A stretch of DNA of 64,000 nucleotides from Sipunculus nudus. Its lineage: Eukaryota; Annelida; Sipuncula; Golfingiida; Sipunculidae. Location of the stretch: assembly GCA_026874595.1 (NCBI GenBank), contig CM049320.1:20717714-20781713 (forward strand). The letters are read 5' to 3'. The notes under the pieces were generated by a model that was given only the letters and a program-made list of their open reading frames with translations, made no database searches and had not been told where the DNA came from. Positions 2,795 to 31,600 of this stretch are shown in pieces. Made by a program: the position numbers and the translations under genes. Every line of letters begins with the position of its first letter. Within the stretch, counting starts at the first letter, position 1.

Positions 2795-3660
2795 TTGTCT
2801 GTACGTTAACCCATACTATTTTGAAAACAACTGGAGCTAGCATCATGAAATTTAATGCAAGAAATTAGCCATCTGAAAAATTCTGCATTTTCTTAGACTT
2901 TTTAGAGAAAAAGCTAAACACCTTAAAAAAATCTTCTCCTCCGAAACTGTCTAGCCAAATTATTCAATATTTCACAGAAACAATCTTTTATACCATCTCT
3001 CTCAAGTTTGTTCGAATGGTTCAAGTTTGGAGAATTTTGGCCGAGTTACAGGAAGTTGAACTTAGTCATCTGTCCAAAAAAGCACATTAAAATGACAGTC
3101 TCAGAAATGGCCAGAGCTATCATCACCAAATTTTATGTCAGTGTTGGTCACATGAGTCATATATGAAATTCAGGTATTGGTGGTGCCACCTGCATTGACC
3201 TTTTTTGTACGGGGGTCATTGGTCATCTGTACATTAACCCATAATTTCTCAGGAATAGCAGGAGCTACCAGACCCAGATTTTATGCAATAATCTGTCGTA
3301 TATAAAATTTTGTGGGATTCAGCTTATTTTTTTTACTATATGCATTTACTTAGATATTATAGGGAAAAAGCTGAAAAACTTTTAAAAGTCTTCATATAAA
3401 CGGTCCAGCCAAATTGTTCAATATTTTACAGAAATGATCCCAGAGGAAAGCCCTCTAAAGTTTGTTCAAATGGTTTGCATTTGATGAATTTTAGTGGAGT
3501 TAAATGAATTTGAACAGTCATTTGGCCAAGTAAGCATACTGACAAAGTAATCTCAGAAATGCAGAAGCTAGCACTACCAAGTATTGTGCAAATGATGGTC
3601 ACATGACTCATATTTGAAGTTGCAGATTTTGTGGTGCCACCTACATTGACCTGTTTTTTA
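2795..3660 (+). repeat. Tandem pair of ~430-bp repeat units
   Basis: Two diverged copies lie head to tail, about 2795-3210 and 3222-3660. Both run from a GTTAACCCATA phrase, through CAAATT(A/G)TTCAATATTT and AAGTTTGTTC(G/A)AATGGTT, to GGTGCCACCT(A/G)CATTGACC. No coding potential is seen. Confidence 0.7.
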
Positions 3661-4079
3661 TGGGCAAAACCTCACAATTTTAGCCTCTTTCAGCTTAAAA
3701 TGTTAATGATGAAACTTTCAGGTTGAATGGTTCAATTTTTCAAAAGAACTATTCTAGGACATGGTTCTTTCAATCATATCAGAAAAGCTTAAGTTGGTCT
3801 TATGGCAACTATAATGTCTATTTCAAACTGAGGACTGCAAAACTGTTCTTCTACAAAATTATTGTTTCAATTATAACTTCTGTAACATTGCACAAAAATT
3901 ATTCTTAGGTGGCCTTTGTTCAAGTTTACTTGAATGATTTTGGCAGAATTATTGGACCTTTAACAATAAAGGGACTGCATCTTTTATCATTCTAGATATT
4001 TTGATAACATGTTTTTGAATATTTCAGCTTTAAAAAAAGCATTTTAGCCAAAGTCTTTCAGTATTTGTTAACAGTTTTA

Positions 4080-4560
4080 CCATCAGGCCAAGATTGTGTA
4101 TCTTTAATAGGTTGAGAAACTGCCAATTGTTTCAGATTTGGCAACAGATCAAGAGTTCATTCAGTGTAGCCAGATATAGGTCTAAAGTTCAATCAGTGCA
4201 TCACAAGGCATGTGATCACCTCATAGGTGACATGTGAACACCTCATGGGCACCATGTGATCACTTCATGGGTGTCATGCCCCTCAGGGCAGGGCCCCTGC
4301 ATGTGCTTATGCAATGGTGTGGCTACTATTTCAGATTTGGCAACAGGCTAGAGGTCAGTCTTGATCTATTTATAGCTCTGTCAGACTGCCAACTGTATCA
4401 GATTAGGCAACAAGTCAAGAGTTCACCGAGTGCAGCCAGGTACAGGTCAAAAGTTCACTCAGTCTAGCCATTTGCAAGTCATGAGTTCACTAAGTGCAGT
4501 AGACTGAGCCAGCAAATTTGTCACAGTTCACTCGGGGCAACTGCCTTGCTCACCTAAGCC
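4080..4560 (+). repeat. Degenerate short tandem repeats
   Basis: Phrases such as TTTCAGATTTGGCAACAG and AGTTCACTCAGTGCAGCCAG recur several times with small changes across this stretch, which indicates a decayed short-period array. There is no gene. Confidence 0.55.
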
Positions 4561-4650
4561 TGGTCAGCCCAATGCATCAGACTCAAGGTAAGTTTAATGT
4601 ATTGGCCTGATATTTTGACCTGTCTATGTGTCTTTGATGGCTTACTCGTT

Positions 4651-4915
4651 CACAAGACAGGTGTCGCCACCTACAATGACTTTTGCACAGTGTATGTGCC
4701 TGCTTATTTCTACAGAGGAATTTGATATATCAGCCTGAAATTGGGCATATATATACTTATCGAATAGCTTTGTCGTATACAAGACTGGTGGTGCCCCTAC
4801 AGTGTGTGTTCCTGCTTATTTTCAGGAGGGGTTTGATATATGAGTCTGAAATTGGGCATATGTATATATCTCTGATAACTTTATTGTATACAAGACTGGC
4901 GGTGCCAGCTACAAT
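4651..4915 (+). repeat. ~125-bp tandem repeat, two-plus copies
   Basis: The phrase TGCCTGCTTATTT...TTTGATATAT...CTGAAATTGGGCATAT recurs at about 4690 and 4810. Each copy is followed by ATACAAGACTGG(T/C)GGTGCC. The unit is about 125 bp. Confidence 0.7.
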
Positions 4916-4916
4916 C

Positions 4917-5580
4917 ATTAGCTCAGCTGACTATAAGTCATCTGAGCTATAGTCGTGGTCCATTGTCCGTCGTCCGTCCGTCCGTCCGTCCGTAGATGTG
5001 GCACGTTTTGAAACCGTTAGACCTAGGAATCCAAAATTCAGCATAATGTTAGATGTCCCCAAGATCTCCTACCAAGCCGAAAACTGGATCTTTGCGACTT
5101 CGTTCCTTTGAGAAATTAAGGAAAAACCTCAATTTTTTATTAAAATCCTATTTTCACACTTCAGGACTGCCTAATATCAAAACCACTCATCTGTTTTTCC
5201 TCATATTTACCATAAATATTCTTCTATATAGTTCCTATGTACATGCCAGAAATTAAGTCTGTTAAGAATAAATTCTTTAAGTTATGGGCCCAAACTTAAT
5301 GGACTTTGTAAAAAATCAGGAAAAATATTTACTCACTTAACATGAAAAATTTTGAAACTAGAGTCTGTTTTCCCAAGTATATAACTATGTTTAATTAAGA
5401 TTCAATTGTTTACCCAAAATTAGATCTGAATTTTGTAAATTTTTTAAGTAATTAGCATAAAAATAAAATCAGTACCTTAAATTTTGCCCAACTTTGACCA
5501 TGGCACGTTTTTTTCCTGTAAGTACCATTGATTTAATTTTCACAGCATGTAAACATAAATATTTAATTTGTTTAAATCTG
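4917..5580 (+). repeat. Dispersed repeat family R1, copy 1
   Basis: It starts with AGCTCAGCTGACTATAAGTC, then a (CCGT)n microsatellite at about 4966-4993, then a conserved body (CTCCTACCAAGCCGAAAACT, TTTCACACTTCAGGACTGCC, TTTGCCCAACTTTGACCATG). The same body occurs at 28618-29330 and, lacking the microsatellite start, at 29395-30010. The conserved order across copies shows a mobile or formerly mobile family. No protein is encoded, and I do not recognise the class. Confidence 0.75.
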
Positions 5581-6594: not shown

Positions 6595-7335
6595 TTCAGT
6601 TTCATCATTAGGAAACACATGGTCAGGTCACCAAATATTATTTGCAACAATTTCTTGCTCATCAATACAAACCAATCATATAAACCAACCATGGCCTTTA
6701 TTACCTCTTCCTCTTACACTTTATCTCCATTTGATATTTTTTTAGATTTTTACCTTCAAGGTTAACTTCAGCTGAGCACAGTGACCCATAGGTCCCTTGT
6801 TTTTGTGTTGTGTGCACCCATGCCAGAATTTCAGCAGTGATGTTTGTGTTATTGTTTCTTATTCAAAATGTTTAGTACTTGCATTGTTCATATACATGAG
6901 AAGTAATGGTCCAGCATTGAAGCATTATACCTGGTGTATTTCCATATGCACAGGTTCGCATTAGGCCTGTAGGCCTTGTTTAAAGTTTATGCATTTTTTC
7001 TCTATTTTTGAGATATATAAATACAGACACAATCTTGGCCTGTTGATAAATCTGTTTGATGCTTCAGTTGAATGGGTATATACTACCATTTAGATGATAA
7101 AATTTCCTTTTACGAATCTCTTCCCAGTCATCTGAGCGTCATGACCCATGGGTCACTTGTTAACTACGGAAACACATGGTCAGGTCACAAAATATTATTT
7201 TGCAGCAATATTTTACTCTTTAATTCAAACCACTCATATCAACCAACCATGGCCCTAGTTATCTCTTCCTCTCAGACTTACCTTCAAGGTCAACTTCAGC
7301 TAAGCACAGTGACCCATGGGTCCCTTGTTATTACA
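6595..7335 (+). repeat. Two copies of a ~220-bp dispersed repeat (R3)
   Basis: Copies at about 6608-6806 and 7130-7330 share AACACATGGTCAGGTCAC, CAACCATGGCC and CACAGTGACCCATRGGTCCC. The second starts with GAGCGTCATGACCCATGGGT, which also occurs at about 2509-2530. The two copies flank ordinary AT-rich sequence. Confidence 0.7.
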
Positions 7336-7499
7336 CATTAGGGCAATTAGTCTTACTTTTTTTTAAATATAAGTACTTCAATGCTTTCATTATTTCCCAG
7401 CCATTGCTTTTATATATGATTCACTGCAATATATTAACTGGTCATATGTAAACATACAAAGTATCCCTCTGATGTTTGATTAACCTCTTACTGTTCCAG

Positions 7500-7643
7500 A
7501 AATGGAGAAAAGAGAAAAAGACAGATCTCGAGTGGAACGGGTACGAAGAAAGGAGCGCAGCAGAAGTCCAGTTGAAAAGAGGGACAATGAGCAGCGTGAA
7601 CGAGTGAGAGAGGGAGATGAGAGGCGTGTCGTCAGGAGTCAAG
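7500..7643 (+). CDS. CDK11: CDK11 exon a (first in window)
   Basis: Acceptor CTGTTCCAG, donor AAG|GTACAG. The frame starts with a two-base partial codon, then ATG GAG AAA AGA, and encodes 47 codons of Arg/Glu/Ser-rich sequence ([17 protein letters not shown]-like), as in the N-terminal region of CDK11. It ends in phase 1. Its last 10 bases and the donor are the founder copy of the 46-bp minisatellite that follows. The ATG at 7502 is probably internal, because an open frame and an acceptor precede it. Confidence 0.85.
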
Positions 7644-10597
7644 GTACAGTAAACAAGGAAAGATAAAAGGTGTGATTCAGGAGTCAAGGTACAGTAGCGG
7701 GGAAAGATGAAAGGCTTGTTGTCAGGAGTCAAGATACAGTAAACGAGAAAAGACGCAAGGTGTGTTTTCAGGAGTCCAGGTACAGTAAACAAGGAAAGAT
7801 GAAACGTGTGATTCAGGAGTCAAGGTACAGTAAAGGAGGAAAGCGAAAGGCGTGTTGTCAGGTGTCAAGTTACAGTAAACGGGGAAAGATGAAAGGCATG
7901 TTGTCAGGAGTCAAGGTACAGTAAACGAGAAAAGACGCAAGGTGTGTTGTCACGAGTCAAGATACAGTAAACAAGGAAAGACAAAAGACTTGTTGTCAGG
8001 AGTCAGGGTAAAATAAATGGGGAAAGACGAAAGGAGTGTTGTCAGGAGTCAAGGTACAGTAAAAGAGGAAAGAGGAAAGGCGTGTTGTCAGGAGTCAAGG
8101 TACAGTAAACGAGAAAAGACGCAAGGTGTGTTGTCAGGAGTCAAGTTACAGTGAACAAGGAAAGACAAAAGACTTGTTGTCAGGAGTCAAGGTAGAGTAA
8201 ACGAGAAATGACGCAAGGTGTGTTGTCAGGAGTCAGGGTAAAATAAATGGGGAAAGACAAAAGGCGTGTTGTCAGGAGTCAAGGTACAGTAAAAGAGAAA
8301 AGACGCAAGGTGTGTTGTCAGGAGTCAAGGTACAGTAAATGAGGAAAGACGAAAAGCGTGTTGTCACGAGTCAAGGTACAGTAAACGAGAAAAGATGAAA
8401 GGTGTGTTGTCACGAGTCAAGATACAGTAAATGAGGAAAGACAAAAGGCGTGTTGTCAGGAGTCAAGGTACAATGAACGAGTAAAGATGAAAGGTGTGTT
8501 GTCACGAGTCAAGGTACAGTAAACGAGGAAAGACGAAAGGAGTGTTGTCAGGAGTCAAGGTACAGTAAACGAGAAAAGACGCAAGGTGTGTTGTCAGGAG
8601 TCAAGTTACAGTGAACAAGGAAAGACAAAAGACTTGTTGTCAGGAGTCAAGGTACAGTAAACGAGAAAAGACGCAAGGTGTGTTGTCAGGAGTCAGGGTA
8701 AAATAAATGGGGAAAGACGAAAGGCGTGTTGTCAGGAGTCAAGGTAAAATAAATGGGGAAAGACGAAAGGCGTGTTGTCAGGAGTCAGGGTAAAATAAAT
8801 GGGGGAAGACGAAAGGCGTGTTGTCAGGAGTCAAGGTACAGTAAACGAGAAAAGACGCAAGGTGTGTTGTCAGGAGTCAAGGTACAGTAAATGAGGAAAG
8901 ACAAAAGACTTGTTGTCAGGAGTCAAGGTACAGTAAACGAGAAAAGACGCAAGGTGTGTTGTCAGGAGTCAGGGTAAAATAAATGGGGAAAGACGAAAGG
9001 CGTGTTGTCAGGAGTCAGGGTAAAATAAATGGGGAAAGACGAAAGGCGTGTTGTCAGGAGTCAGGGTAAAATAAATGGGGGAAGACGAAAGGCGTGTTGT
9101 CAGGAGTCAAGGTACAGTAAACGAGAAAAGACGCAAGGTGTGTTGTCAGGAGTCAAGGTACAGTAAATGAGGAAAGACAAAAAGCGTGTTGTCACGAGTC
9201 AAGGTAAAATAAATGGGGAAAGACGAAAGCGTGTTGTCAGGAGTCAGGGTAAAATAAATGGGGAAAGACGAAAGGCGTGTTGTCAGGAGTCACGGTACAG
9301 TAAACGAGAAAAGACGCAAGGTGTGTTGTCAGGAGTCAAGGTACAGTAAAAGAGAAAAGATGAAAGGTGTGTTGTCACGAGTCAAGGTACAGTAAACGAG
9401 AAAAGACGAAAGGAGTGTTGTCAGGAGTCAAGGTACAGTAAACGAGAAAAGACGCAAGGTGTGTTTTCAGGAGTCAAGTTACAGTGAACAAGGAAAGACA
9501 AAAGACTTGTTGTCAGGAGTCAAGGTACAGTAAACGAGAAAAGACGCAAGGTGTGTTGTCAGGAGTCAGGGTAAAATAAATGGGGAAAGACGAAAGGCGT
9601 GTTGTCAGGAGTCAAGGTACAGTAAACGAGAAAAGACGCAAGGTGTGTTGTCAGGAGTCAAGGTACAGTAAACAAGGAAGGGTGAATCAATAAAGGCCTG
9701 AAGGACAGGGATTTAATTTTTGCAAGACTATCTATGGTGGGATATATTATGGTGTACCCACAGTCTGCATGTCTGTTGGTTAACTATTAGCGTCGCTGTG
9801 ATAACTTACTAAGGATTTGATGGGTTTTGTCTGGATGAATGATTTTTCCTGCAACAAAAGAATGTCACAGAAAGAAGTCAGTACCAGTAGATTTATCTGT
9901 GACACTGAACATTTATTACCAGATTTTATGTATGTCCTAAACTCTATATAACTCTGATATGTTGCATCAAAAGCTACTTTTAGATTTAATTAATATAAAG
10001 AAGCAGAATCACTTTAAAACATACAGTGATAGTTAATCATAGTAATCATCAATGATTTATACAATTACTTTTTCAATGTTAAAGATTACAATTACAGTAA
10101 ATCTACTCAGAAACAAAATGTAATTGATTACAAATACATTTTAATGCATCAGTTGTGATCACCTACTATTATTGATTACGATAACCCCAACTGTGATGCT
10201 GTGTTTTTGCAATATTAGAACATGAGGAGGAGGGGGAGGATATCGAAATCATCGAGGATGAACCACCAGAGCATCATCATGAGGAATATGAGGAACATCA
10301 GCCAATCAGGAAACAGGAATCAGGTAGCGAGGCTGAGCAGTCTCCCTCTGCTGGTTCCGGCTCTGACAGCGAAAGTGACTCTGAAGATTCAGACTCAGAC
10401 TCAGGTGGGTGTCAATCAAGTTTCAGCTGTCAGTCCAGCTTTTATCACCTGTCAATCAAATCTTCTCTGAGTCAACTATCTTAGCTCATGTAGAGATGCT
10501 TGATCTCAGAACCTGATCTGATCTGCAAGGCTTATTGCAATATAAAGGTATAGTTTATAGATGTAATATTGTAGTTGTTCAGCAGTGCCATATGGCA

Positions 10598-10684
<87 letters not shown>

Positions 10685-13600
10685 TACACACACACATGCA
10701 TACATACATACATACATATACTGTGGTTGCCTTTTTGCTCTGATGTTTTTAATTTTGCAATATTTGTGAATGCAACATACCGTAAAAGTCGTTGCAGAAG
10801 TCGCATCCTTATTACAAGTCGCACCCTGACTTTTAGGATCCCCCTGGGGAATAGCCGTTCAAGTTTAGTTTCAGGAAAAGTCCATAATAAAGGTCGCACC
10901 CAGACTTCGGAGGCGTCCCAACCACCTGATACTTTTGGAAATTGAGTATCATTCCTTGCAATGCAAGACTACAACCAACGTCCCCGTAGCAGTTTTGTGG
11001 TTTATAAACTAGATAAACCATTTAAACGTAAAAAATAATTGGACAGCTTTAATACAATGCTTATATTTAAGGAATAACAACAGAATCTTAACATATAAAG
11101 TCGGGGTTTAATTGTCAGGTAAGATTTGTACAGTGCCAAAGTCAGCTGCGTCGGATAACATTTTGTGCCGTGAAACGATGTCCTTGTTGCTGTTTTTTAC
11201 TAGGTTAAGTAACATTAAAATGCAAATATCAAGTTAAATGACTGTATTAATAAACTAAAAGAGTCTGAGGCAAAATACTATTACCATCGAGCAACTCTTT
11301 AAATTGTTAAAGATCGTCAAACGTGGGGTGGATTCATTAGACTATGATTAGTTTGCGTACGCGTGACGAGTCCCAATCCGCTGCATTGGGCATGATTTGA
11401 ACTGACTTAAGACAACTGAAAGATGGAAAGAATAATTCAGTTTGAATTTATTCACCTAATTTCTTAAATGGGCTCTTAAACTGAATTTATTATCCCTTCA
11501 ATTAAGTGTTACAACTTACCATCTAGGCGCGGCACATGCACGGTATTACTGAAATCACTGAAATATCAACAGGGGGATAATGAACGCTTTATTGACCGGT
11601 CAGTTAACGTAAAATAAACATAATTGAATTTACAGATATTATATTTACTGGGACTAATGATTTATTTTTCTTTGATAATATCTGGAAAACCCAATTTCCA
11701 GCGTTATCAGTGATTATATTCAAGTGGCTTGGATGTATGGCAAACTCAGCCGTGTTGAACCAGATCCGTCATGACACCAAACGGTGCCGGTTCCCGTGGA
11801 ATTTAGGTGCGTATGTGGCATTTTAAGTAAATAAAATATATACCTATATGGTGTTTGTTATTTCATTGTATTGATTAATGTGTCTTCATTAAAAAAATCA
11901 CGAATACGTCAACGCACGATTGACCGTAATGCATGCGTGCCGCCATATTGTTGGGCATACGATCGTCCTGAAAGAGACACGGGTAACACTCGAAGCAAAT
12001 CGTATATTTGTAGCTCACCTGAAACGTTATAACGCTTGAAAACCACGAGATGGTGACAGTGACCTAATGGTTCTTAATATGAGAGTTTATAATTGTGGAT
12101 ATCAGTCACGGAAGGCTTAGTTGACATGGGGATGTAAAGGTCATTGCACGGGTGACCCGGGGCTTGAACTTCCGCTACACGGTTTCAAAGGTCAGCTGGT
12201 ATTCAGCGATCAACCGGGCAGGCAAAAGAATTCACGACGTATGTGTAGTGGATCAAGCTTGAATGTGACGCAACTTTACATGCATAAACGGATATGGAAC
12301 CGCAAGTTTTTCATTATGGAAAGCATTCCCATATAGTTAAACGGAAAGAAAATGTACATCAAAGAGCTGCAGACTGGCATATGCGTCAAATTGACTCATG
12401 ATATAATAGTAACGCAGATTAGGAAGTGTCACTTGAATGGCGACTTGTCAGAACGAGTAGGTCTTGAACCGGGCAAATTTAAAATTTGCATTAAATGTTA
12501 ATAAAATGAAAATTACGTCCTTTCACAAAATATAAAGCATAAGAGATGGTTAAAAGTGTAAATTATTGGGGAAAGACGTTTCACAAAGCACTGGTTAAAG
12601 GTATTGCCGATTATCGCTCAACTGACGTCGTTCCATGTACCGGGAAAGCTGACAGAAACGGGATAAGTATGTATAACAAGTCGCACCCCGACTTTGCTAG
12701 AAAATTCTAGTTTTTAGAATTCGATTTCCTAGTACAAGTCGCGACTTCTGCAACGACTTTTACGGTAATCTGCGAATATGAAACCCTTGGGAATAAGATG
12801 CCCCATAAACTAAGATGAACAAGAGGGGATGATGCATCTGCACAAACAGATTACTTCATATAAGTAATGGCTTTGGAAACAACCTATAGTCACAATCTTA
12901 TCTGTGTATGGTATCTAAAATGGCCCATGCATACAAGCATAAGTAGTTGTTATACATGCGGTAATCACATGAGATATATTGATTGTGACACTGGCCAAAG
13001 TGAATGACTGCACCAAAATTGGGTTAGGTATTGTTGGATTAATTCTAAAATCTGCCATGCTCAGATTTTATAAGTTCTTTTGCAGTCGCAAAAATGAAAC
13101 CTTTGCAAAATGTTAAAAATGAAGAAATTGTGAATATAAAGCCAACCACAGTAAATATATAATTCTTGCATTATTATATCATTTTTCTTCGTTAGATTTA
13201 TCAATCATAATGTCTTCTGCTGTTAACTTTATGTGCATGGATTTGATATTTTTTCCTGAGGAATTTTCGTTTTGAACATATTTTACAAGCTGAATAAAAT
13301 ATATCTGTGTTCCAGCCACCCAGGCAGCATTGACACATAGGACCCATCTGGGTATTTATTTGGACCCTCAGCTTTACACACCTCACACACTTCTCTTAAG
13401 GACTCAGTATTGGTTGTTACCATCCAAACTTGATGTTCTGAACATTAACTCAAGTACCTTCAAATTAAGGCAAAAAAAAAATGAAAGGTATGGTTCTCAG
13501 GCATGGCCCGCATCAATTTAAACCCCCCGCATCAAACATTTTTATTTTGGTTTTCATCTTTCAAGAAGATGATATAATACAATTTTGATATGATTTCCTT

Positions 13601-16600: not shown

Positions 16601-19600
16601 ACATTTATTGGTGTCATCACTATAACTTACCAGGACTGTGTTGAAGCTCAAAAGAAATATTGGTTATAAAATCTCACATGAGTTTGATTTCTGGCAAATC
16701 CATGCATATTTAAGGAGATCAGAGGTCACCATACTTTGCTGGTTTTAAATAACTTGGCTAAAATCTGATGGATTTTCATTATAAATATTAACCAATGTTA
16801 GACTTTCTCCCGTGAGTTAGATTTTCAGCAAAATTCAAGCATATTTAATGAGGTCAGAGGTCACAAGACATAGGACAAGTATATTATGCACCTTTGTAGG
16901 GCTCTTGTTTTGGCTTGGTATGACAGGGCTTTGTTATAGGTATTTGAGAAAATCATATGAAATCACAAGAAAAACACTGTGAGACCTGCTTTACCGTTTA
17001 TATTTATTTTTAATTTAAGTATACACAGTAAACCTGGATGTCACATGGCAAGCAGGAATTTACCATATAAATTGATGACTGATTAATTTTAGCCTCTCCT
17101 GAGTGCCATACTACCTTGAAAATACATTAAAATGTTTGCCTTGAACCATTTGAAAAAATTGCATGCTGCTTGTGTTGTGGTTTATGTTTTGGTAATTAGC
17201 CCCATTTGCTATCTGTTATAACAAACTTAGGTGATTTGAAATGTTGGTATTACAGATAAAACAGAGTAGAATATAATATTTAGGATTTGACATTTGTTGT
17301 TTGTGGAGTTGATATTTTAGTGCATTAATATATTTATTTTGTTTTATATTCAAATTATTTATTTCTGTGTTGATTATATGGGTCCTAGACAACAGTGAAA
17401 TTTGCCAGTATAGGAAGAGTAATGGAATCTTGAATGAATATCTTTGTAGGAAGTGGGAGTGGTTCACCACCAAGTACTCGAGATGTGCAGCATATGGAAG
17501 AGGAGGAGGAAGAGGAAGCTCACGATGAGCATCACTCGGGTAAACTAAAACCTCAGATAAACTAAAGCCTCAGGTAAACTAAAGCCTCAGATAAACTAAA
17601 GCCTCAGATAAACTAAAGCCTCAGGTAAACTAAAGTCTCAGGTAAACTAAAGCCTCAGGTTAACTACAGTGGAGCGCTGTTCATCCTAACATCTCGGGGG
17701 ACACAGGTTTTCTTCAGATAAACGAACATTCGGATGAACGAACATCTGTAAAATAAAATCGTTTCATCGATGTTGTCATCCCGGTATTACTACTAAATGG
17801 TGGTACTGTGTCACGGACTTCGGTTAGCTTTCAGAGTTATAAAAAACGTGAACAGAACGGAATAATGTGTTATAAATACCTTTTTACTATCAAATCAAAA
17901 TTTCAATCAAGCTATTATAATATCTTTAATTACTTTATTAAGATTTTTTGTCAGTAAAGTACATGTATCAGTTAATCTTTCGCTGAACGTGTGGATATCC
18001 GCCATGATAGATTTACCGCCCTCGGTTCCGCCCCCTATGTGCAGACAGTTAAACTAAATGTGCTTGTGAGACTCATTTATTACTTGCTGCGATGTAGAAA
18101 TTGACAAAATATAAAAAAAAGTTTTATATGAATGCACAGTTTATTTACAACAATAGTGCGGAAATATCACATGAAAACTGATGAACATGGGGTTCGGCGG
18201 ATCACATGCATCGAGAAAGTCACATCATAAAATCAGTTAAAATAACTGCGGATATCAGACTGCCTGGAACGATAACTGCCTGCCTGATTTCTGATGTAGC
18301 GTAGCTCACTCAAGTGAAGCGGGTCAGCCTTTGGTAGGCTCTCTAACCACGATAGAACACCTTTGACATGAACAAATGCCTCTGAAGTTGTGGGTGGGGG
18401 CTTCACGGGGGCTGATGTGTCTTCCTCATTATCAGATGTCTCGAGAGCAGCTTCTTGAGTGACTGACTGCACAATCTCCTCGTCTGTCAGCATTGCAGCA
18501 GTTGGTAGATTGCCATCACAGTGGAGCCAGTCAGCAACTATCAGTTCACTGTAGTCCGAGTCCACCGCCTTGGCAACTGAGCTGACCTGAATGTCTGTCG
18601 GTGATTCCACCTCATCCGCATCAGCTGGGGGCTGAGCACCAGCAGGAGATTTAAGCTCCATAAAAAGGGAATTCTGCCAGCACTTGTGGATTGTAGACTG
18701 TCTCAGGTCGTTCCAGGCATCACCTAACAGGTTGATGGCATCACACAAGTTGAAACCGCGCATCCGTTCTATGATGGACAAGCTGTTGTCGACGCAGTCT
18801 GCAAGCAAGGATGACAGCAAGCGTTTACGATAATATCGTTTTGTACATTCTATGATGCCAGCATCACAGGGCTGTATCTTGCTGGTCAATTCTTCGGCAG
18901 GAAGATACACCATATGTTCCCGTCACTAGTCCGCAGTTCATCTTCAATGGGATGGGCGGGGCAGTTGTCCACAAGAAGTAATGCGCGTGCTGGCGTCTGC
19001 TTCAGACTCTCCCTGGCATACTGACGGACGGACGGGACGAATTCCTGGTGAAACCAATCCGTGAAGAGCTTACGGCTCATCCACGCGTTTTTCTGAGCCC
19101 GATACGCCACAGGCAGGGAGTCCATGTTCACATGCTTGAAACACCTTGGTTTAGTTGACTTCCTGATCACCAGGGGGCGCACTTTGTGTTCACCGGTTGC
19201 GTTGGTGCACAACAGAGCAGTAATCCGCTCTTTTGACACCTTATGTCCAGGAGCACATTTCTCGGACGCATCAGCTAGGGTTTTGTCAGGCAAAACCTTC
19301 CAGTAGAGACCTGTCTCGTCGGCGTTGTACACTTGACAGTCTCTCAAACCTTCCCGTTCTTGCAATTCACGCACGTGGGATCGGAATTCGTCGATGTGGC
19401 TGGTGTCCCCTGACAAGGCCTTGCCCTGAATCTCAAGCTGCCGGATGCCGTGACGTTCCTTGAACCGCTTGAGCCACCCACTTGATGCCAAAAATGTACT
19501 TTCAGAGCCATGCATCGACTTGTTGTACATCGCTGCCTTTTCCATCAGGATTGGACCGGATATGGGGCTGCCTTTGGACCGTTCCTGCAGAAACCATGTG

Positions 19601-22600
19601 TATACGGTCGCATCCAGCTTGTCATCAGACGCCGTGCGCATCGTCTTTCGTCTCTTGGAAGCATGCGTGTCTGGCGTCTGGCCCTTGAAATCCTTTAGCT
19701 TCTGACCACTGTTCTTGATGTCACTAATAGTAGATCTGCCAACATTGAACTCTCTGGCCACCTCAGCTGCCTTGGTGCCTCGATCAAGTCTCTCCAGAAT
19801 GCTGAGCTTGTCTTCAAGTGACAGGACATGGCGTTTGCGCTTGCGAGACCCTGACTCCATCTGACATGAAACTTGAGTGCTCTGTTGTCGTTTTGAAGAT
19901 TTGCTAAATTGTGAATGAACTTGCGTGTCATGGTATAGCTTATATAGAAGATAGATTTGCCTGCACTGTTAAACTGCTCAGATGAGTACAAGTTCGAGCG
20001 TATCAGAGTCCGACATTATCAGCTCAAAATCTACTCGCTCTCATGGCCGGATGGTTTGCAGGTGTGAACAACTCGACATTGCAGGACACAAGGTTAATTA
20101 GGGGACTCGGCCGGTGGTAGTTATCACATCTATAACTGCTCAAATGAGTACAAGCCCAAGCTGCGTGTGTACAACTTGGGTAATTAGGCGTTGTCACACC
20201 TGCAGAAACGAACCGGTGATGCATTCATAATTAGTCGGGACCGACCAGGAGTAAATACACGAGCCATTATCAGTTCTTCTTATTGAATAAATATTATTTT
20301 ATATTTCCAGATTTTCAAAATTACGGATAAACGGTCATAATTTCGGTTCTCCAGTTTAAAAAACGGATAAACGATTTTACGGATAAACGGTGTTCGGATG
20401 AATGGTGCTCCACTGTATAGCCTCAGGCAAACTAAAGTCTCAGGTAAACTAAAGCCTCCAGTTAACTTAAGGCTCAGGTAATTTAAAGCCTCAGGTAAAC
20501 TTAAGCAAACATCTGGCTCAGTGGTCAGACCCTCGTAGAGTTGCACATTAATAATGATAATAATATGCCCATATTAATAATAATCAGACCTCCTTCATGA
20601 ACAGTAACAGGACCACTCATGAATAATAATAAGACCTCTCATGAATATTAATAGGACTGTCCAGGGAGAGAGTACAAGAAAATAATCTGTAAGCACCAAG
20701 TGAATTTGTTCTTGCTCAAAGTTGGAAGCTATTCAGTTATATTCAATTATGTTAGCATAAATGCTGTTGCTCTAAAGAGGCAGATTTGTATAATACAGCA
20801 ACTTAAATATTTTATAAACCACATTCTTCCAGGTGATTCAAGTATTGGTTCAAGCATTATCTGGGGTTCACTATGGCATTTATACTTCACCGTCGGTGTA
20901 TCAGTGCCTTTTCCCCTTGTTTACAATATGACATTCCTGTATGCTGGAGCCTGTACAACTTCGGCTTGGTCACCTGGGTTAGGATACATAATAACATCCA
21001 CTGAACCCAGAAACATTACTGATGATGTGACTAAGTTTGTATCCATTGATATATTAAAATTATAAACTGTGTCGATTTCAAGAAATTCACCATTTCATTG
21101 AGCAGATCAAAACCCTTCAAAAGCCTTTAACACTAGGTAATGTACATAAAAGATTTAAATAACCCAAAAAATATCTATTTAATTTGCCAGGAAAAGTCAG
21201 ATCCAAGTTTGACGATGAAGACGACCATCCCAGTGAAACAGAGTCAGGTCAAAGGTCATTTGACGAGAGAGAGGATGATGGGTACTTGGATGAATCTCCA
21301 CCTGTGTCTCCCGTTGAACTTCAGCCAGAGCTGCCCCCGTTCTTCCCGGCCACACAGGGATGTAGAAGTGTAGAAGAGTTTCATTGTCTTAATAGGATTG
21401 AAGAAGGTACCTACGGCGTGGTCTACAGGGCCAGGGACAAGAAGACAGGTGGGTCAGCATTCAAGTATCAGGGCTTCCACTGACGCTGACAAATTCCTAT
21501 ATTTTCCTGTATTTCCAATGAAAAAAAGTCTCTTTTTAAGTTTTTATGTTTTTTTCCCAGCATTTTGAATGTAATATCCTAAATTTTCATGTATTTTTGT
21601 TTCCTATATAATGTTATTATTCAATAAATATTTCTTATAGACCTGATATTTTTGAAAACATTAAGCTCTTTCATAGAACTGTACCTGCAAATGTTGCAAT
21701 TATTGTCCCCCGCTTCTGTAGAATGGGGAACATTGATTTGGGTTTGTCTGACTGTCCCTCTTGTCTGTCTCTCCATCAGGTTTTCCATTCTGTGTGATAA
21801 CTTTCCTGAATATTATCCAATTTCATTTAAATTTGGGTCATTGATAACTCTTATGCATACGTTGGTTGGGATTGGTTTTGGAGTGTCTGTCTGAATATTT
21901 ATTATCATCAGCTTGTAAACAAACAAAGATTTAGCAGCCAAAACTCCTTTTGTTTTTCATATATTATAACTGAAAATTTTTACAAACTCCTATACATTTG
22001 TCTGTAGTAATCCTACAAAGTTCCTATATTTCTACAGGACTCTGGTAGGCGCCTCGGTGTATGTCCCATATCCAAACCCTTTAATCAGGCACATGTGTAA
22101 GGCAGTGTGTAAAATTTGAAAATTCATATTTTTTTACAGTTGCTTGAAAACATCTGCCAGGGGTCATACAACCTTTATAAATTGTAAAATGTGCATAAAA
22201 TTTGAAATACATGATTTATCATGTACATGAAAATGGGTGGAAAACTCATGATTCACCATTTTCTCATTTCACCATAGTATCAGTGAGAAAGTAGCATCTT
22301 GAATTTTATCAAAGAGTCCCTTCATTCATGAAATCTTAATCTTTTGGCCAAGAATTAGCTCTGTATTTGATATTATTGAAAAGAGGTGAAAATCTAAATA
22401 ATCGGTGTCAATCAGGAAATGCCCTGACTGACTTGGCCTAAAAATTTGATACATGTTCCTGCTGGCTGTAACACTGCATGTTGTGGCTCACAATCAGGCC
22501 TCCAGTCACACGGCCTTGTTATGGTAAACAGACACACGTGGACTGTGTTTACCAACATGCAGAGCCATAACAAGGTGTTAAGCAGCCGTATGCGAGGTAC

Positions 22601-25600
22601 TGAGACTGTGTACTGGGATGGATTTGCTGGGAAACTTTACTATAAAGCAAAACTGAAGTGATAGTGGGAAAGAATAGGCATAATATTGCTCATTATTATG
22701 TCCCTTTAATTTAAAATAAATGCCACAAACTCCTCTTGGAAGAAGCATTATAATAATATATATTCATGAAACCTAAGAGAAGCAAACATAAGGGACCAAT
22801 ATATTTCAATTCCACATAGCTCCTACTCTGGTTGAAATGGCTGAATTTGAGACTTTGCCGTTAACGTGGAATTTGACAGATGTTACCGTGAGTGTTGCCA
22901 TGGGAGCCCCTTAAGGAGTCAGAGAGAACCTTAGTTTTACTGTGGAAAGTTATTCTGTATTTTGAAAATCAGAGGTGTAAGTTACAGCATCTCCAGAAGA
23001 CCTATGCTAAGTCCACATAGGGAAATTAATAGATTATGCCTATTATAACCCTGCCTCCCACCATACCCCCTTAATGAAGACATCACTGAAGATAATTTTG
23101 TTGATTTTCAGCTGAGATTGTCGCCCTGAAGAGGCTGAAGATGGAAAAAGAGAAAGAGGGATTTCCAATAACATCACTGAGAGAAATCAATACCCTACTC
23201 AAAGCGCAGCACCCTAACATTGTCACAGTCAGGGTAAGCCCAGCACATTAATGTTGTCACAGTCAGAGTAAGCCCAGCACACTAATATTGTCACAGTCAG
23301 GTTAAGCCCAGCACATTAATGTTGTCACAGTCAGAGTAAGCTCACAACCCTAATAATTTCACAGGGTGAGGAATTGGTGCTTTCAAATAAAAAAAATCAC
23401 AAAATCAAATCATGTTTTTTAATTGCCAATCTTATGGTAAAATACATTCATCAATTGCTCAGGTCTAGACTTCCACATTAAATTACTATGGGGTGTTTCT
23501 TATAGAAAGGAAATTAATTATTTGAATTTATATGTAATTTTAAATCTATAGTAATCAAAGGGTCTCTCAAAACCTCTTGAAATTGACACATAGAAACTCA
23601 GTTGAATACATATTCAGTAACATAAAACATGTATATGTATTTTCAGTTCTAAAGATTTTCATGAACCAAAAGCAAACCTTTCTATTGTAAATGTTAAACA
23701 TATTGGTAGAGATATACTGAAAACTGAGTGAGATAATGCCTCAATTTAAAAATATAGGCTCAGATTTTGTCAAAAGCTTAATTTTAATCAGCAAAGGAAC
23801 CATATAATGAATGATAATTTTTGGCATAATACAGATACACATAAATCAGTATAATAATATACGTGACATTGCGGTAAAAAAGTTAATACACACTGATGCT
23901 ATTCTTAAAATTCATTTTTTTCTGCCCAGATTTATATTGAATATTTCATTTCTCACCATCATGCACCTATCATTAGTAGTTCATTCGGGTACCATCCCAG
24001 CAAAATAATTTTTAAAATTAAATGGACATATGCATATTGAATAGAAATATATAAAAAACAGGTTTAAATTAAAAAGAAACATGATAGAGGGAAAAAAAGT
24101 TTTGAGATTCATGTATTGTCATGTAACTTGATGTTAGCCACCTAAAATGTTGTTTGCTGTTAGTGGATGCTTAAAATTGTGTACCATTTAAAAATTTTAA
24201 AGTTTCAAAATTGTTAAAGTATCATATGAAAATGAATGTGAATATCATAAATGCATATACCATTAGTAAGAACTCTGTACCATGCAGTTTTAAAATTATA
24301 TATATACCTAATTGGGTCTAAATTGAAACAACCTTTGGATTGATTGTATTTTCAGTAGTTTTGCCCAGAAGCTACCCTAAATAAAAAATGTGAGATATAT
24401 ATATATTATTGAAAACTGTATGGCCTTCTTAGTGATAAATCCATTCTTCATGTGTTTTGTAATTTTAATTTTGCAGGAAATAGTTGTTGGGAGTAACATG
24501 GATAAGATCTACATTGTAATGGACTATGTTGAGCATGATTTGAAGGGACTCATGGAAACTATGAAGGAACCATTCTTAGTCTGTGAGTATAGGGTCTGTG
24601 ATCTCTGTTGTTTATAAGACCAAGCACTGTAGTACTAAAATTGTGGAGATTATAGTACTGTTAGCTGTAAAAGCTAACATTATTTACCAGCCACACCTGT
24701 TATGGCCTGGATACAGAGCCCACGACGATGTAATTCAAGGTTCAAATGAATATATACCTAGGGTTATACAACTTTTAAATATAAATACACTTATTTAATA
24801 CATTAGGCTCATATCAGCCCAACACTCTGTGCACTCAGGGATGCAATGCTTCTGAATGAAATTGACAAGCATCACAATTTATGTGAGGTCACTTTGCTCT
24901 GTGACACACCGCAGAGGAATAAAACTGACAACAAAGTAGGACCCTGAATGTGTGATGGTGCTAATTATGTGCCTTGGAACAGTTTTACTTGAGTACTATA
25001 CATGGGTGGTTGTGTTGATAACATGTATGGCCATTTAATAAAACATAATGAGCTGGCTCTTTTGGTATTGCCTTTATGCAGCTGTATCGTCCCTGAGCCA
25101 TACAGGCCTCAGTCTGATATGCTACCCTCGGGCCAGTACAACTGCAGTATAGAACAAGCCAGTAAATAGCATAGAAATATTATTGTGAATGAAACCACAG
25201 TGTTTTTCAACATAAAGAGCTCACCCCACCGAAGTATCTTGCTTTCATCATTTAGCATTTTGTTGAATCAGATATCTATGCAAGCCTGATAAATTGTCCC
25301 TACCAGTCTGGTTTGCAAATTAAAATGTGTTTGCGGATGTAGGAAGTTGGTAAATTCCAAGTTCACCCATAGAGGTGTACCATACAAAATTAAAATCAAG
25401 TGTTTTTTTAATAGAAGATTTATGATAAGTAACATGTTACCAGGCACAAAAATTTGTCAGAGAACAGTAATAATAGTATTTTTGTATTGATAGTTATAGA
25501 GCATTAAGTTAATATATAATGATAGAAACATGAGATTGTATTTCTTATGAATATTTATTCATTATTTATGTTGATTTTTTTTTTCAGCTGAGGTGAAGAC

Positions 25601-28600
25601 ACTGATGATACAGTTGTTAAGGGCAGTTGCCCATCTCCACGACAACTGGATATTACATCGTGACCTGAAGACATCAAACCTGCTGCTGAGTCACAAGGGC
25701 ATTCTCAAGGTCATTACTACAAGTTAATTTTAAAATTAAGGGTTAGGGTTAGGAAAGGGAAAAAGAAATGTCAGTGGAGCAATATGTAAAAGGATGTAGG
25801 GACAACACACATTTAAGGAAAACACAAAAAATTGTATGAAAGTAAAGAAAAGGACAATGTTTGTATACACAAAATATTTGTATAAACAGAGTGATGGACA
25901 TTTGTCTGTAATACACATATACCTCTAAGGTGTACATCCATGTATACTACCAGGCATATACCTCTAAATATAGGTAATTGTATATGTTACTTTAAAAAAT
26001 GAAATTTCTATATTTTGTTCATGGAATGTCTTGTTAAGAGTTTTATTGCAATGCTACAAGGAGTAATGTTGTATAATGCTATAGTCTAAAGCAACATCAT
26101 TAGCTAACACTGTAATCATTTATGAAATACTTGAGAAATGAAATGAATAACAAATCATGTGCAATATACATGTAGGAACAAAAATAGTCAAACAAAAGAC
26201 AGTCTTGCATCAATGTGCTTACCTTTCAGGTTGGTGACTTTGGGCTGGCCAGGGAATATGGATCTCCGCTGAAGTATTACACGCCCATCGTGGTGACACT
26301 GTGGTATCGAGCACCAGAGCTGCTCCTGGGTGCTAAGGTAGGTTGTCAGACTCGACCATTCCTGCTGGTTGAATGGGTAGCATATCTAACTACTAAACTG
26401 GTTAACTATAAAGTGGAGGTATAAATCTGGTAAGTGATATAAACATATTATGATTTTACTTTTGAGTAATTTTAAAGTTATCAGAATATACATAGCAGTG
26501 ACATCACATTAGGTATTCATGCTTAAACAGATGGCAGTCTGTTCATAGTGCTATTAATTGAGTAGTTTTCAGTTTTCCAGTAGCAGGCACAGTTTTCCCT
26601 TCTTTTGGATGAGCTGTCAGCCAACAAAATTGAACATGAGAGTTGATAGGTGTGTTTATGTAACAAAGGCAGGAACAATATATCCAATTTTTTTTCCCCT
26701 GCTTCCTCAAACAGGGGACATTGATTTGGGTTTGTCTGTGTGTCTGTCCATCTGTCTGTTATTCTCTTTGTCCGCCTTCAGGTTTTCTTTTCCGTGCCAT
26801 AACTTTCCTAAATATTATCTGATTTCATTCAAATTTGGGCCAGTGATTGCTCGCATGCTTACCTTGGTTGGGATTGGTTTTGGAGTGTCTGGCCCTCTGT
26901 CTGTCACTCTGTCTGTGTCTGTCAGGTTTTCATTGTAGTGCGATAACGTCCCTAAATTTTATTGGATTTCATTCAAATTTGGTTATTGATTGCTTTCATG
27001 CTTACCGTGGTTGGATTTGGTTTTGGAATGTCTGTCTCACAAGATAATAATACAATATAATATTTCGTTTTTTATGTGATGAATCAGCACATATACTTTA
27101 ACTTTTCACCAACAGGTGTCCATTTTTCAGTAAGTGTCAGGTGCTGCCATCTTTTGAGCATGGTAAAAACTATTTGTACTTATTCACCACAGACTTTAAA
27201 AGCATCTTGGATTTGAAGGCGGAGGCGGATACATAAATTCCTTGAATATTCTTTACCAGATACCTTCACGTTTTGTATATTTTGATATTTTACACAGTCA
27301 TCAGTTTGTCTCACTTTTCTATTACTTTCCAGAAATACAGCTGCCCTATTGACATGTGGTCAGTAGGTTGTATATTTGGTGAATTCTTGCTGATGAAGCC
27401 ACTCTTCCCAGGAAAGTCAGAGATTGATGAGCTCAATAAAATATTTAAGGTACGCATTATAGTAATGTAGGACATAAGTCTCAACTTGCCTCGATTCCAT
27501 TTTTATATTGACTCAGACTTGGACTTGATTGTCCTGGACTAAGACTTGTACTTGAACTCTGAGGTAAGGAATTGAGAAATCAGGCTGAGACCATCTGAAG
27601 TCCCATAGAAAAACTGTCCCATATTTTAATGACTTATGTGTGAACTGGTAAAGGAATATTACAAAATAATGACACTATATATACCAAGCTTTGCTCTGCA
27701 TCAGGAGCTATAAATGTAATAAACTGTTACAGTAAAAGCATGTGTGATCTAGCAAAAAAATGTACATTATAATCTGAAATTTCCACTTTAAATTGTTTTT
27801 TTTTAAGGATATTTGTATCGGATTCAAACTCAGACTTGGACTTGGGTTCCAAATGACTCAGACTCGAAGAAGGTGAAGCTGGACTCAAACTCAAGGATTG
27901 ACTCAGACTTGGACTTGGACTAGAGTGACCTGGACTCAGACTTGCACTTAGACTTAGATGATGTGGAAAATCATGTTTGCTGATCAAAAGAAATATAACG
28001 ACTGATGATTGATTTTTAATTGATAGTTTTATGTAACTTCAGTATTATCATAAAATCTGCTGTATGGAATTATACCTAAAACAATGACCAAGTAAATTTG
28101 TCCATAACCTTGGGAGGTAAAGGCAGTTGCCAGGTTGTGTACACTTATTAGCTACAAAAGGTTCAGTTATAATGTTGTTCATCACTTTGTGTCCCGTCAT
28201 TCTTATGTCTCACTGACATAAGAATTTGTTTCTGGGTGATATTGACTTCTTTGTATGCATGTGCATACATGATCATCTGTGATAATGTATGCAAAGAAGC
28301 AATCAGTTAGATTGATTATAAACTAAAACTACCAATCATCTATATAATTGATTAATTTACACCAGTAGTATGCAGACATGATTGGTTACTTTTATATCAC
28401 AGGCTCTTTGTAAATAAGCCTGTTAATTACTATTTATAATGTATTTCAGGGTAATATTAACAAAATTTCCAATAGAAGTGAAATAAAATCTAATTTGGCC
28501 CAAATTATTTTATTAAACAACTCCTTTTGATTAAATCTTTACTTTGAAGTGCTCCTATTCAAAATTGTTCCACAGGGTTTAAGATTGTCACATGTATGGT

Positions 28601-31600
28601 CCAAATAAAAATATTTTTTTAGCTCTGCTGACTATAAGTCATCTGAGCTATAGTCGTGGTCAATTGTCTGTCTTCTGTCTGTCCGTCCGTCTGTCCGTCC
28701 GTAAGACTGGCACATTTCGACACCATTGGACCTACGGATCTGAAATTTGCCATACAGTTAGATTTCCCAAAAATCTCCTACCATGCCGAAAATTGGGTCA
28801 ATAGGACTTTGTTCCTTCGAGATATTCAGGAAAAACCTCAATTTTTTGTTTGAAATCTATTTTCACGTTTCAGGACTGCCTAATATCAAGACCACTCATC
28901 TGGTTTTCTTCATATTTACCATAAATATTCCTCTATATAGTTCATATGAACATGCCAGAAACTAAGTCAGTATTATTAAATTTAAAAAAGTTATGGGCCC
29001 AAACATAATGGACTTTGTAAAAATATCAGGAAAGATATTTGGTCACTTAAGACCAAAAGTGTTAAAGGTAGGGACTTTTTTTCAGTAATACAACTTTAAT
29101 TGATCAAAATTTAATTGTTTACCAAAAATTAGATCAAAATCTGTTAATTTTTTTTAAATATTGGCAAAAATATAAAATTGGTACCTTAAATTTTGCCCAA
29201 GTTTGACCATGGCACGTTTTTTTCCTGTGAGTACTGTGGATTTAATTTTCACAGCATGTTTTTGTTAGCATTTTGTCTGTTAACACCAAAAATTTGAAAC
29301 CAGTTGATCAAAAACTGTAGATTTTATTCAAGTTTTCAAGCACCATGTCACATCAAGTTTACATCAAGCTAGTGTTATGCAGTTTTGCTAGAGCTCAGCT
29401 CCCCAGCTTCAGCTGTAAGTTCCTTAAATTTAGCATACAGTTAAATGTCTCCAAAATCCCCTACCATGCCAAGAATTTGATCACTAGGACTTAATTCCTT
29501 CGAAATATTAATGAAAAACTTCATTTTTCCATTAAAAACCCATTGTTACACTGTAAGACTGCCTAATATCAAAACCACTGATCTGACTTTGATCATATAT
29601 AATATACATATTTTTCTATACAATCGCTATGCACATGCCAGAAATGATGTCAGTATTGCGTAATTGTTTTAAGTTATGGGCCCAAACATAATGCACTTTT
29701 TAAAAAATCAAGAAATATATTTACTCCCTTAACAAGAGGATTGCTGAAGCTAGAGTTTTTTTGTCAGGGATGTAACATTACTTAATCAAGATTCAATTGA
29801 ATACCAAAAATTAGTTCTGAATTTTACAAATTTTTAAGTTATTAGTATAAATATAAAATTAGTACCTTAAATTTTGCCCAACTTTGATCATGGCACGTTT
29901 GTTTCCTGAGAGCAATGTTGATATAATTTTCATATCATACACACATAAGGATTTCATCTTTGTAGTTTAGAAAGCTGAAAGAAATTGGCCAAATATTGTA
30001 GCTTTTATTAATGTTTATATGAGACCATGTCTTAATCCAGCCCCTCTTCAGTCACCTGTATGTTGACCTTGTTGACCTTTCATCAGATTATGCATGCTTG
30101 AGCGAAGCATACACTGGGGCAGCCAGGCAGCTAATGCCCAGCCACAGTTGATCCAGGTGTCCAACCCAACTCATCTAGTAGTTGTTTTGAAAAACAACAT
30201 AACAATAAACAATAAATTAATAATTTTGTATTGTTTTTTTTATAACAAATTAAAGAAAAATTAATAGAAAAGGAATTTGTTAGTTGATGAGTAACAGAAA
30301 ATTAACTTGCAGTTACTGATGATGTAAGAATCTTGTATGGATGGATAGAATGTCAATGTCAGTGTTATTCCAAATAACACCATGCAGTCACCTATGGTAT
30401 TTTTCAGTGAAATTTTAATGATAAAAAAATAAATCATATTATTCATTACTAATCATTAGGGACCATATGAAGGAAATTAATGATAGACAAATAAGCAGTT
30501 GATAATATTAATCTAGATTCCTACTGTGTCTAGTGTGTAGATTGATGTGGAAGTAGTCCAAAGTGAATATATAACATTTATTTTTTTTATATAAATAAAA
30601 GCCATAAAACCAGGTACTTATGATCATTATTTAAATTTGTGAATTTTGTATATTCTGGATTCTCAACATCTTTGTTTGGCTAAACTAAATAAATATTAGA
30701 CATGGTGCGAATGCTTTGCAAATGTATTTGAATACGAATATGAATATGTACTGCATTAAAAAATTTATTGCATAAGAATGGGAATTCAGGTTAAAATGTT
30801 TGCATTTCAAGACTAAATGTTCAAGATTAGATTATGTTGACATGTATTTCATTTATATGTGTGTAACAGCTAAAAAGGATTTAAAATCTCAGTTCCTAGA
30901 AATTGTTTTTTTGCTCTTTTCAGGATCTCGGTACCCCAAGTGAAAAAATCTGGCCAGGAGTAGCTCAGCTGCCCACCATGAAGAAGTGTACATTCACGGA
31001 ATACCCCTACAACTCATTACGTAACCGATTTGGTTCTCGACTTACAGACCAAGGGTTTGATTTGATAAACAGGTAAGATAAATTGATACAGTATACAAAG
31101 GAAACACTGTATTTCTCAGATTCACCTGACATCAGTGCTGCCACCTGTATTCAAGGATAAGCTTCATTTTTCTTTATCTGTTCTGATTCAAAGCAATGTG
31201 GATAAAGTTTTTCATAAACAAATTAAAAAAGACTTTATATAAGGCCATCATTCTTCACATGCCTCGGCTTGTCATGGAAGCACCAAAAAATGAATAAACA
31301 TTCCTTATCCAGTCCAACTTACGACAATGTGATCTTTTCAAGTTAAAAGGTCAATATAAGAAATAAAAACCAGCTTTATCTTTATAAATAACTCACATGA
31401 TAGATTAGATAAGGGTTGTATGACTTGTATCTGTTTTTGTAAGCAGTAGTGTTTCGATACAATGAATCAACATGCATAACTTATCAATGTGGTGTATTGA
31501 TGTATATCAGTATATTTTTACAATCCTGGTCCCCAGTAACCAGCCCTAGGTGAATCTCTGATCTATTGACACTCTTTGAACTGTTACTTCTAGCTCAACA

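Follow-up and report, generated by a model that had tools for sequence, protein, structure and literature searches.

A 45-copy minisatellite across an exon–intron boundary of CDK11 in Sipunculus nudus, and smaller repeats at other donor junctions

The gene CDK11 lies in a 64,000-nucleotide stretch of the Sipunculus nudus genome (assembly GCA_026874595.1, contig CM049320.1, positions 20,717,714 to 20,781,713 of the forward strand), here called the window, and contains a tandem array made from the end of a coding exon together with its 5' splice site (donor). The array is genuine and belongs to a known kind, the boundary minisatellites, among which its size is unusual; the kind recurs both in the gene and in the genome. 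Tandem repeats spanning exon–intron boundaries have been described as 'mirages' in the globin (BflGb6 and BflGb9) and Adh3 genes of amphioxus (PMC3087553). We consider it probable that the CDK11 array is likewise a mutational by-product that is tolerated.

Ten CDK11 exons were joined between window positions 7500 and 31879. Their splice signals and phases fit, the single reading frame contains no stops, and the joined product of 501 residues matches CDK11B in the PDB (31zn_B) at E=1e-203 over residues 113–500. The exon at 7500–7643 encodes a charged, RS-containing stretch N-terminal to this alignment, which starts at residue 113, and belongs to CDK11 on the basis of frame and phase, as an earlier note on this DNA had claimed. 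The exons, all of which rest on the ten-exon joining, and the associated features are listed below, with a slash marking the splice junctions.

7500–7643, + strand: CDK11 exon, 144 nucleotides (nt), phase 1, joined to the acceptor at 10219 and to the other exons, nine in all; its 3' end is the array founder; acceptor tgttccag/AAATGG, donor gtcaag/GTACAG
7615–9679, + strand: 46-bp x45 minisatellite, of which the first copy is the exon end with the authentic donor (Tandem Repeats Finder, TRF, and unit table)
7644–7655, + strand: intron start with the authentic 5' splice site AAG/GTACAGTAAACA; the predicted U1 pairing bulges the C at +4 (-8.4 kcal/mol)
7664–7666, + strand: in-frame stop TAA in the translation past 7643, included if any of the 44 later donors is used
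10219–10404, + strand: next CDK11 exon
21191–21448, + strand: CDK11 exon; the surrounding open reading frame (ORF) matches CDK11B in the PDB at 1.8e-24
23112–23233, + strand: CDK11 kinase exon, founder of the second array (also CDK11B match)
23202–23364, + strand: second boundary array, 34 bp x4.8 (TRF), consisting of the 3'-terminal 32 nt of exon 23112–23233 and the intron start
24477–24582, 25588–25709, 26230–26337, 27333–27449, 30924–31072 and 31687–31879, + strand: remaining CDK11 exons
31647–31686, + strand: exact 21-bp x1.9 duplication in the intronic 3' splice-site region before exon 31687 (TRF and sequence)

The large array was found by TRF with a period of 46, 45.0 copies and 84 % matches. 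When it is split at the donor, one copy (copy 0) is exonic and 44 are intronic, with a spacing of 45 or 46 bp. The 46-bp unit joins roughly 28 nt from the end of the exon to 18 nt from the start of its intron. The earlier note had described an exon end and 5' splice site amplified into the intron about 44 times at 7624..9690, with dozens of near-copy decoy donors. The amplification, the decoys and the 44 intronic copies are borne out, but the homology starts near 7615 and ends at 9679. The donor GT is kept in 38 of the 45 copies (37/44 intronic), and the exact 18-mer gagtcaag/GTACAGTAAA is present in 22 (21/44 intronic). The stop that the same note expected from use of a later donor was also found. 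Splicing from the authentic junction leaves the frame open, and TAA 7664–7666 lies upstream of every one of the 44 later copies, so that use of any of these adds a premature stop.

There are 33 distinct units among the 45, with a mean pairwise identity of 0.85, and identity is slightly higher at most even lags, indicating a weak two-unit order. The exon 5' of the first copy is not repeat-like (identity 0.45–0.50 to the array consensus). At the exon-side edge of the array lie four of the five 45-bp spacings and also units 1 and 4, which have the two lowest mean identities of all. The exonic copy carries two private bases (G vs A and C vs T) against all 44 intronic copies, which suggests that a single founder duplicate gave rise to the array, with no exchange with the exon. 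A dispersed satellite or transposon-borne repeat was rejected, as among the best candidates scored in a genome search the array part of the query 7300–7660 matched this locus only; the other matches were to its first 30–38 bases.

An array of this form could have arisen once, by one short tandem duplication that took in the end of the coding exon and the first part of the intron. The intronic copies would then have expanded by slippage or unequal exchange, while the exonic first copy stayed under coding selection. The first donor is most likely still used, being the first transcribed and, between large introns, the nearest to the exon's own acceptor; proximity across the exon is reported to guide 5' splice site choice when the flanking introns are large (PMC9225289). 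With the authentic donor the exon is 144 nt long, and with one of the decoys (7689–9663) its length would be between 189 and 2163 nt. Decoys would leave with the intron, and occasional use of one would yield an mRNA with a premature stop.

The earlier note overlooked recurrence: a second CDK11 exon end and the ends of some myosin exons have been amplified in the same way. In the second CDK11 array, the donor AGG/GTAAGC of exon 23112–23233 recurs in altered form, as AGA/GTAAGC, GG/TTAAGC and AGA/GTAAGC. The last residues of this exon are conserved kinase sequence and differ from CDK11B at one position. Boundary segments of 25 nt of exon and 8 nt of intron were compared with the neighbouring ~230 nt at all ten exons. 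The donor segment recurs downstream at two of the ten donors (z scores 12.6 and 14.6, the latter being the array at 23202–23364) and the acceptor segment recurs upstream at none of the ten acceptors, effectively nine, since the position used for the acceptor of the third exon lay 28 nt upstream of the true one. Two donors (1 nt and 3 nt) and one further acceptor (1 nt) were also offset. As the compared segment is mostly exonic, this test is blind to the intronic duplication at 31647. The intron 3' of exon 10219–10404 also includes an AT microsatellite (43.5 copies, 10600–10686).

Exons encoding the myosin head were located by the profile PF00063 at 75 places in the genome, of which 40 were examined with 260–300 bp of flank. 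A script set the junctions, except that the acceptor of L065 was placed by hand, and seven of the 40 donors were marked uncertain yet counted. The donor junction is duplicated downstream in four of the 40 exons:

L046: two copies 56 bp apart, with 28/36 aligned bases identical
L056: array of 36 bp x at least 7.8, 94 % matches, ..SILTG/GTCAGT
L063: array of 29 bp x at least 6.7, ..SRRIQQ/GTAAAT; the open frame would place the exon end 63 nt beyond the profile match
L065: array of 83 bp x1.9, which takes in 50 nt of exon that fall within the PF00063 match, ..GFPVRMTLASFFKR and ..RRLGFPVRMTLASFFKR

L063 was counted via TRF (its z is only 3.3) and L046 via alignment (it has no TRF array); minus both, the count is 2/40. 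At z>5 there were no duplicated acceptor junctions upstream of the 40 exons and none among 80 wrong-side control comparisons. With a TRF score of at least 50 and a period of at least 15 as the rule, 3/40 donors and 0/40 acceptors lie in arrays. Set against all control comparisons, the donors stand out (4/40 vs 0/120, Fisher P=0.0035), and with the CDK11 exons added, though these were not blindly chosen, the ratio of donors to acceptors becomes 6/50 vs 0/50 (Fisher P=0.027). Arrays cover 6.2 % of intron bases on the donor side of the myosin loci and 0.4 % on the acceptor side, the boundary arrays themselves making up most of the 6.2 %. In L065 and in the second CDK11 array the conserved coding sequence must predate the repeats, and the direction there is from exon to intron.

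Some candidates among the myosin exons were dropped. L042, with a z of 4.9, was not accepted as a boundary array, as its best downstream match misses the junction. L044, L057 and L058 have donor-side TRF rows that score just 33–47, and L044 has in addition one acceptor-side row with a score of 33. Separately, four adjacent matches to nearly one myosin-head segment (profile positions 109–153) were seen in C2 at 44.849–44.852 Mb. This cluster may be a tandemly duplicated exon, perhaps of the mutually exclusive type.

A search of the genome for three CAGGTAAG words with gaps of 15–45, compared with the same pattern backward and with loci counted irrespective of exons, gave 822 matches (424+398) and 179 matches (126+53), respectively. 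Among the matches listed, these represent 11 distinct C1 loci for the triple CAGGTAAG and two for the backward pattern. However, as a single word CAGGTAAG outnumbers its backward counterpart 2.6-fold (21 vs 8 in 304,000 bases), and part or much of the triple-pattern excess may follow from this. The frequency-matched word CAGGAAAG occurs 19 times in the same 304,000 bases. A genome-wide enrichment of donor-bearing arrays is thus only suggested by these word counts.

It is possible, though we regard it as rather doubtful, that boundary minisatellites are pervasive in this genome and tolerated one-sidedly, with donor copies surviving and acceptor copies purged. Donor copies would survive because the authentic donor is transcribed first and is nearest across the exon, and acceptor copies would place decoys in front and be purged. 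Both rules reverse for a duplicated acceptor, which could explain why the sample held no acceptor arrays. Amphioxus BflGb6, unlike the exons sampled here, does have an acceptor-type case (PMC3087553).

Several results weigh against the reading of these arrays as tolerated mutational products that recur at donors. The comparison of myosin donors and acceptors (4/40 vs 0/40) is weak alone (Fisher P=0.116). The three donors inside TRF arrays are not above the 4.9 % array coverage found elsewhere (P=0.31), this figure being 9,818 of 200,000 bases in arrays of period 10–200 over twenty arbitrarily placed 10-kb stretches. In 29 arrays from 304 kb of sampled DNA, window included, donor-like words are not significantly more frequent than in reversed units (P=0.20). 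In the CDK11 array itself, the edge far from the exon (unit 44) is not diverged. Finally, the predicted pairing of 24 of the 44 decoys with U1 is equal to or better than that of the authentic donor. The prediction is used here for the large array and the authentic CDK11 donors, since the values for the later copies of the second array were out of register. The donor at 7644 gives -8.4 kcal/mol, in a register where bulging of the C at +4 restores GUA-AGUA pairing, and ranks seventh of the ten CDK11 donors (in one of which the segment was offset by a base). Two decoys are predicted to do better, namely 7780 (CAG/GTACAGTAA, -9.9 kcal/mol) and 8192 (AAG/GTAGAGTAA, -8.5 kcal/mol), and copies that lack the GT are predicted to give -1.6 to -1.9 kcal/mol. 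On paper the array would be a set of real competitors for U1.

These competitors could form a selected regulatory device, in which decoys bind U1 and thereby titrate it or divert transcripts to nonsense-mediated decay, or in which array length tunes CDK11 output. The 37 intronic copies with GT, the 24 decoys predicted to equal or beat the authentic donor, the stop at 7664 that any later donor includes, and a report that splicing of an upstream exon can change by intronic U1 binding (PMC5933811) all favour this. However, conservation at the donor columns (-3 to +6) does not exceed that elsewhere in the unit: among the 44 intronic copies 4/9 of these columns are invariant, vs 15/37 of the remainder. 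Seven of the 45 copies lack the donor G, and variation at +4 and at +6 is 27 %. The presence of such arrays at unrelated myosin exons also argues for a mutational cause, and we consider a selected device unlikely. The U1 sink, unstable isoforms and length-variable regulation put forward in the earlier note are candidate roles only, and any function beyond tolerance would be hypothetical.

A role for the near decoys as a landing strip, on which U1 would aid recognition of a middling authentic donor with its bulged register, seems improbable. The seventh rank of that donor and a report that U1 bound downstream of a 5' splice site can enhance the exon (PMC5933811) are in its favour, but the GT has been lost in three of the nearest seven decoys, vs four of the remaining 37 (not significant at P=0.07; four other cut-offs tried gave P 0.10–0.32), which is if anything opposite to a helper role. 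There is a similarly small chance that the exon was extended into an older intronic minisatellite. The last residues of exon 7500–7643 lie in the charged, RS-rich part outside the PDB alignment, which would allow a late origin. Against such exonisation, the units at 23202 and in L065 have conserved coding sequence as their exonic portion, and the exon copy at 7615 has its two private bases. Tandem arrays are often misassembled, but an inflated or collapsed copy number is most improbable here, as 33 of the 45 units are distinct and so are no stutter of one read, and the array sits inside a 64-Mb contig of a 153-contig assembly of 1.4265 Gb, in which the long contigs with listed lengths measure 61–111 Mb.

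Other arrays in the sampled DNA were not accepted as boundary arrays. Two 17-bp arrays in the window (17535–17666 and 20419–20506), which flank a transposase-like ORF, were rejected, as were the array at 36138–36397 and a 35-bp array in L025, where no adjoining exon was found by eye. The transposase-like ORFs, at 18233–19968 on the - strand, lie between the two arrays of the 17-bp unit CTCAGGTAAACTAAAGC, which holds a donor-like word; by eye they look pogo/Tigger-like. The L025 array (2875–4583, 35 bp x48.8) has a AAGGTACAG core in common with the CDK11 donor array, and inverted part-unit copies adjoin its ends. In L011, a 34-bp x19.8 array at 4876–5548 (68876–69548 if window numbering is continued) is rich in AGGTAC, and no exon was recognised there.

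The preferred reading, a tolerated mutational by-product, places the CDK11 array with the mirages. Its tandem unit spans an exon–intron boundary, and many but not all copies (38/45) carry the splice dinucleotide, just as splice signals are kept in many but not all copies of the amphioxus repeats. The latter show length and somatic instability with apparently regular splicing (PMC3087553), which is also regular in Adh3, where units are 10–72 bp (PMC3087553). Further cases are PGBD5 and TnC (PMC3902484), and amphioxus mirages are reported not to disturb regular splicing (PMC3087553, PMC3902484). The similar arrays at other exons and the amphioxus cases point, by analogy, to a recurrent and tolerated product of mutation rather than a device special to CDK11.

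The two sets also differ. There are 45 units in the CDK11 array, vs 6 and 3 in two BflGb6 haplotypes (PMC3087553). The hosts are CDK11 and myosin genes of another genome rather than amphioxus globin and Adh3 genes, and only donor junctions are involved in the exons sampled here, whereas amphioxus has repeats at both boundaries. Introns can also be gained when AG/GT sequence is tandemly duplicated (PMC3087553, PMC4974935, PMC2891723), which likewise duplicates across a splice site, but in CDK11 an existing intron has been enlarged; no new intron was seen, and none is needed to keep the frame intact. Minisatellites have expanded inside human genes too, as internal tandem repeats that change the structure of the gene (PMC2812944); fifty percent of the variable ones are reported to modify proteins, and the CDK11 copies are intronic. 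Earthworm metallothionein has intronic minisatellites, with boundary-spanning not evident in the available part of the source (PMC12783039). No boundary minisatellite was recognised in a mollusc in a partial literature search, mostly of titles and abstract openings.

The size of the array, the host genome and the recurrence at donors are new, and the kind itself is already known. Engineered duplications are the usual means of studying how one of several near-identical 5' splice sites is chosen. A natural set of 45 copies of a donor in a conserved kinase gene, together with the smaller sets, makes the rules of proximity and transcription order directly testable by RNA-seq. The finding suggests that the amphioxus mirages are not peculiar to that lineage. 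If boundary minisatellites are indeed pervasive and one-sided in this genome, they would represent very many natural experiments on how such near-identical donors are selected, and would keep supplying cryptic extensions of exons.
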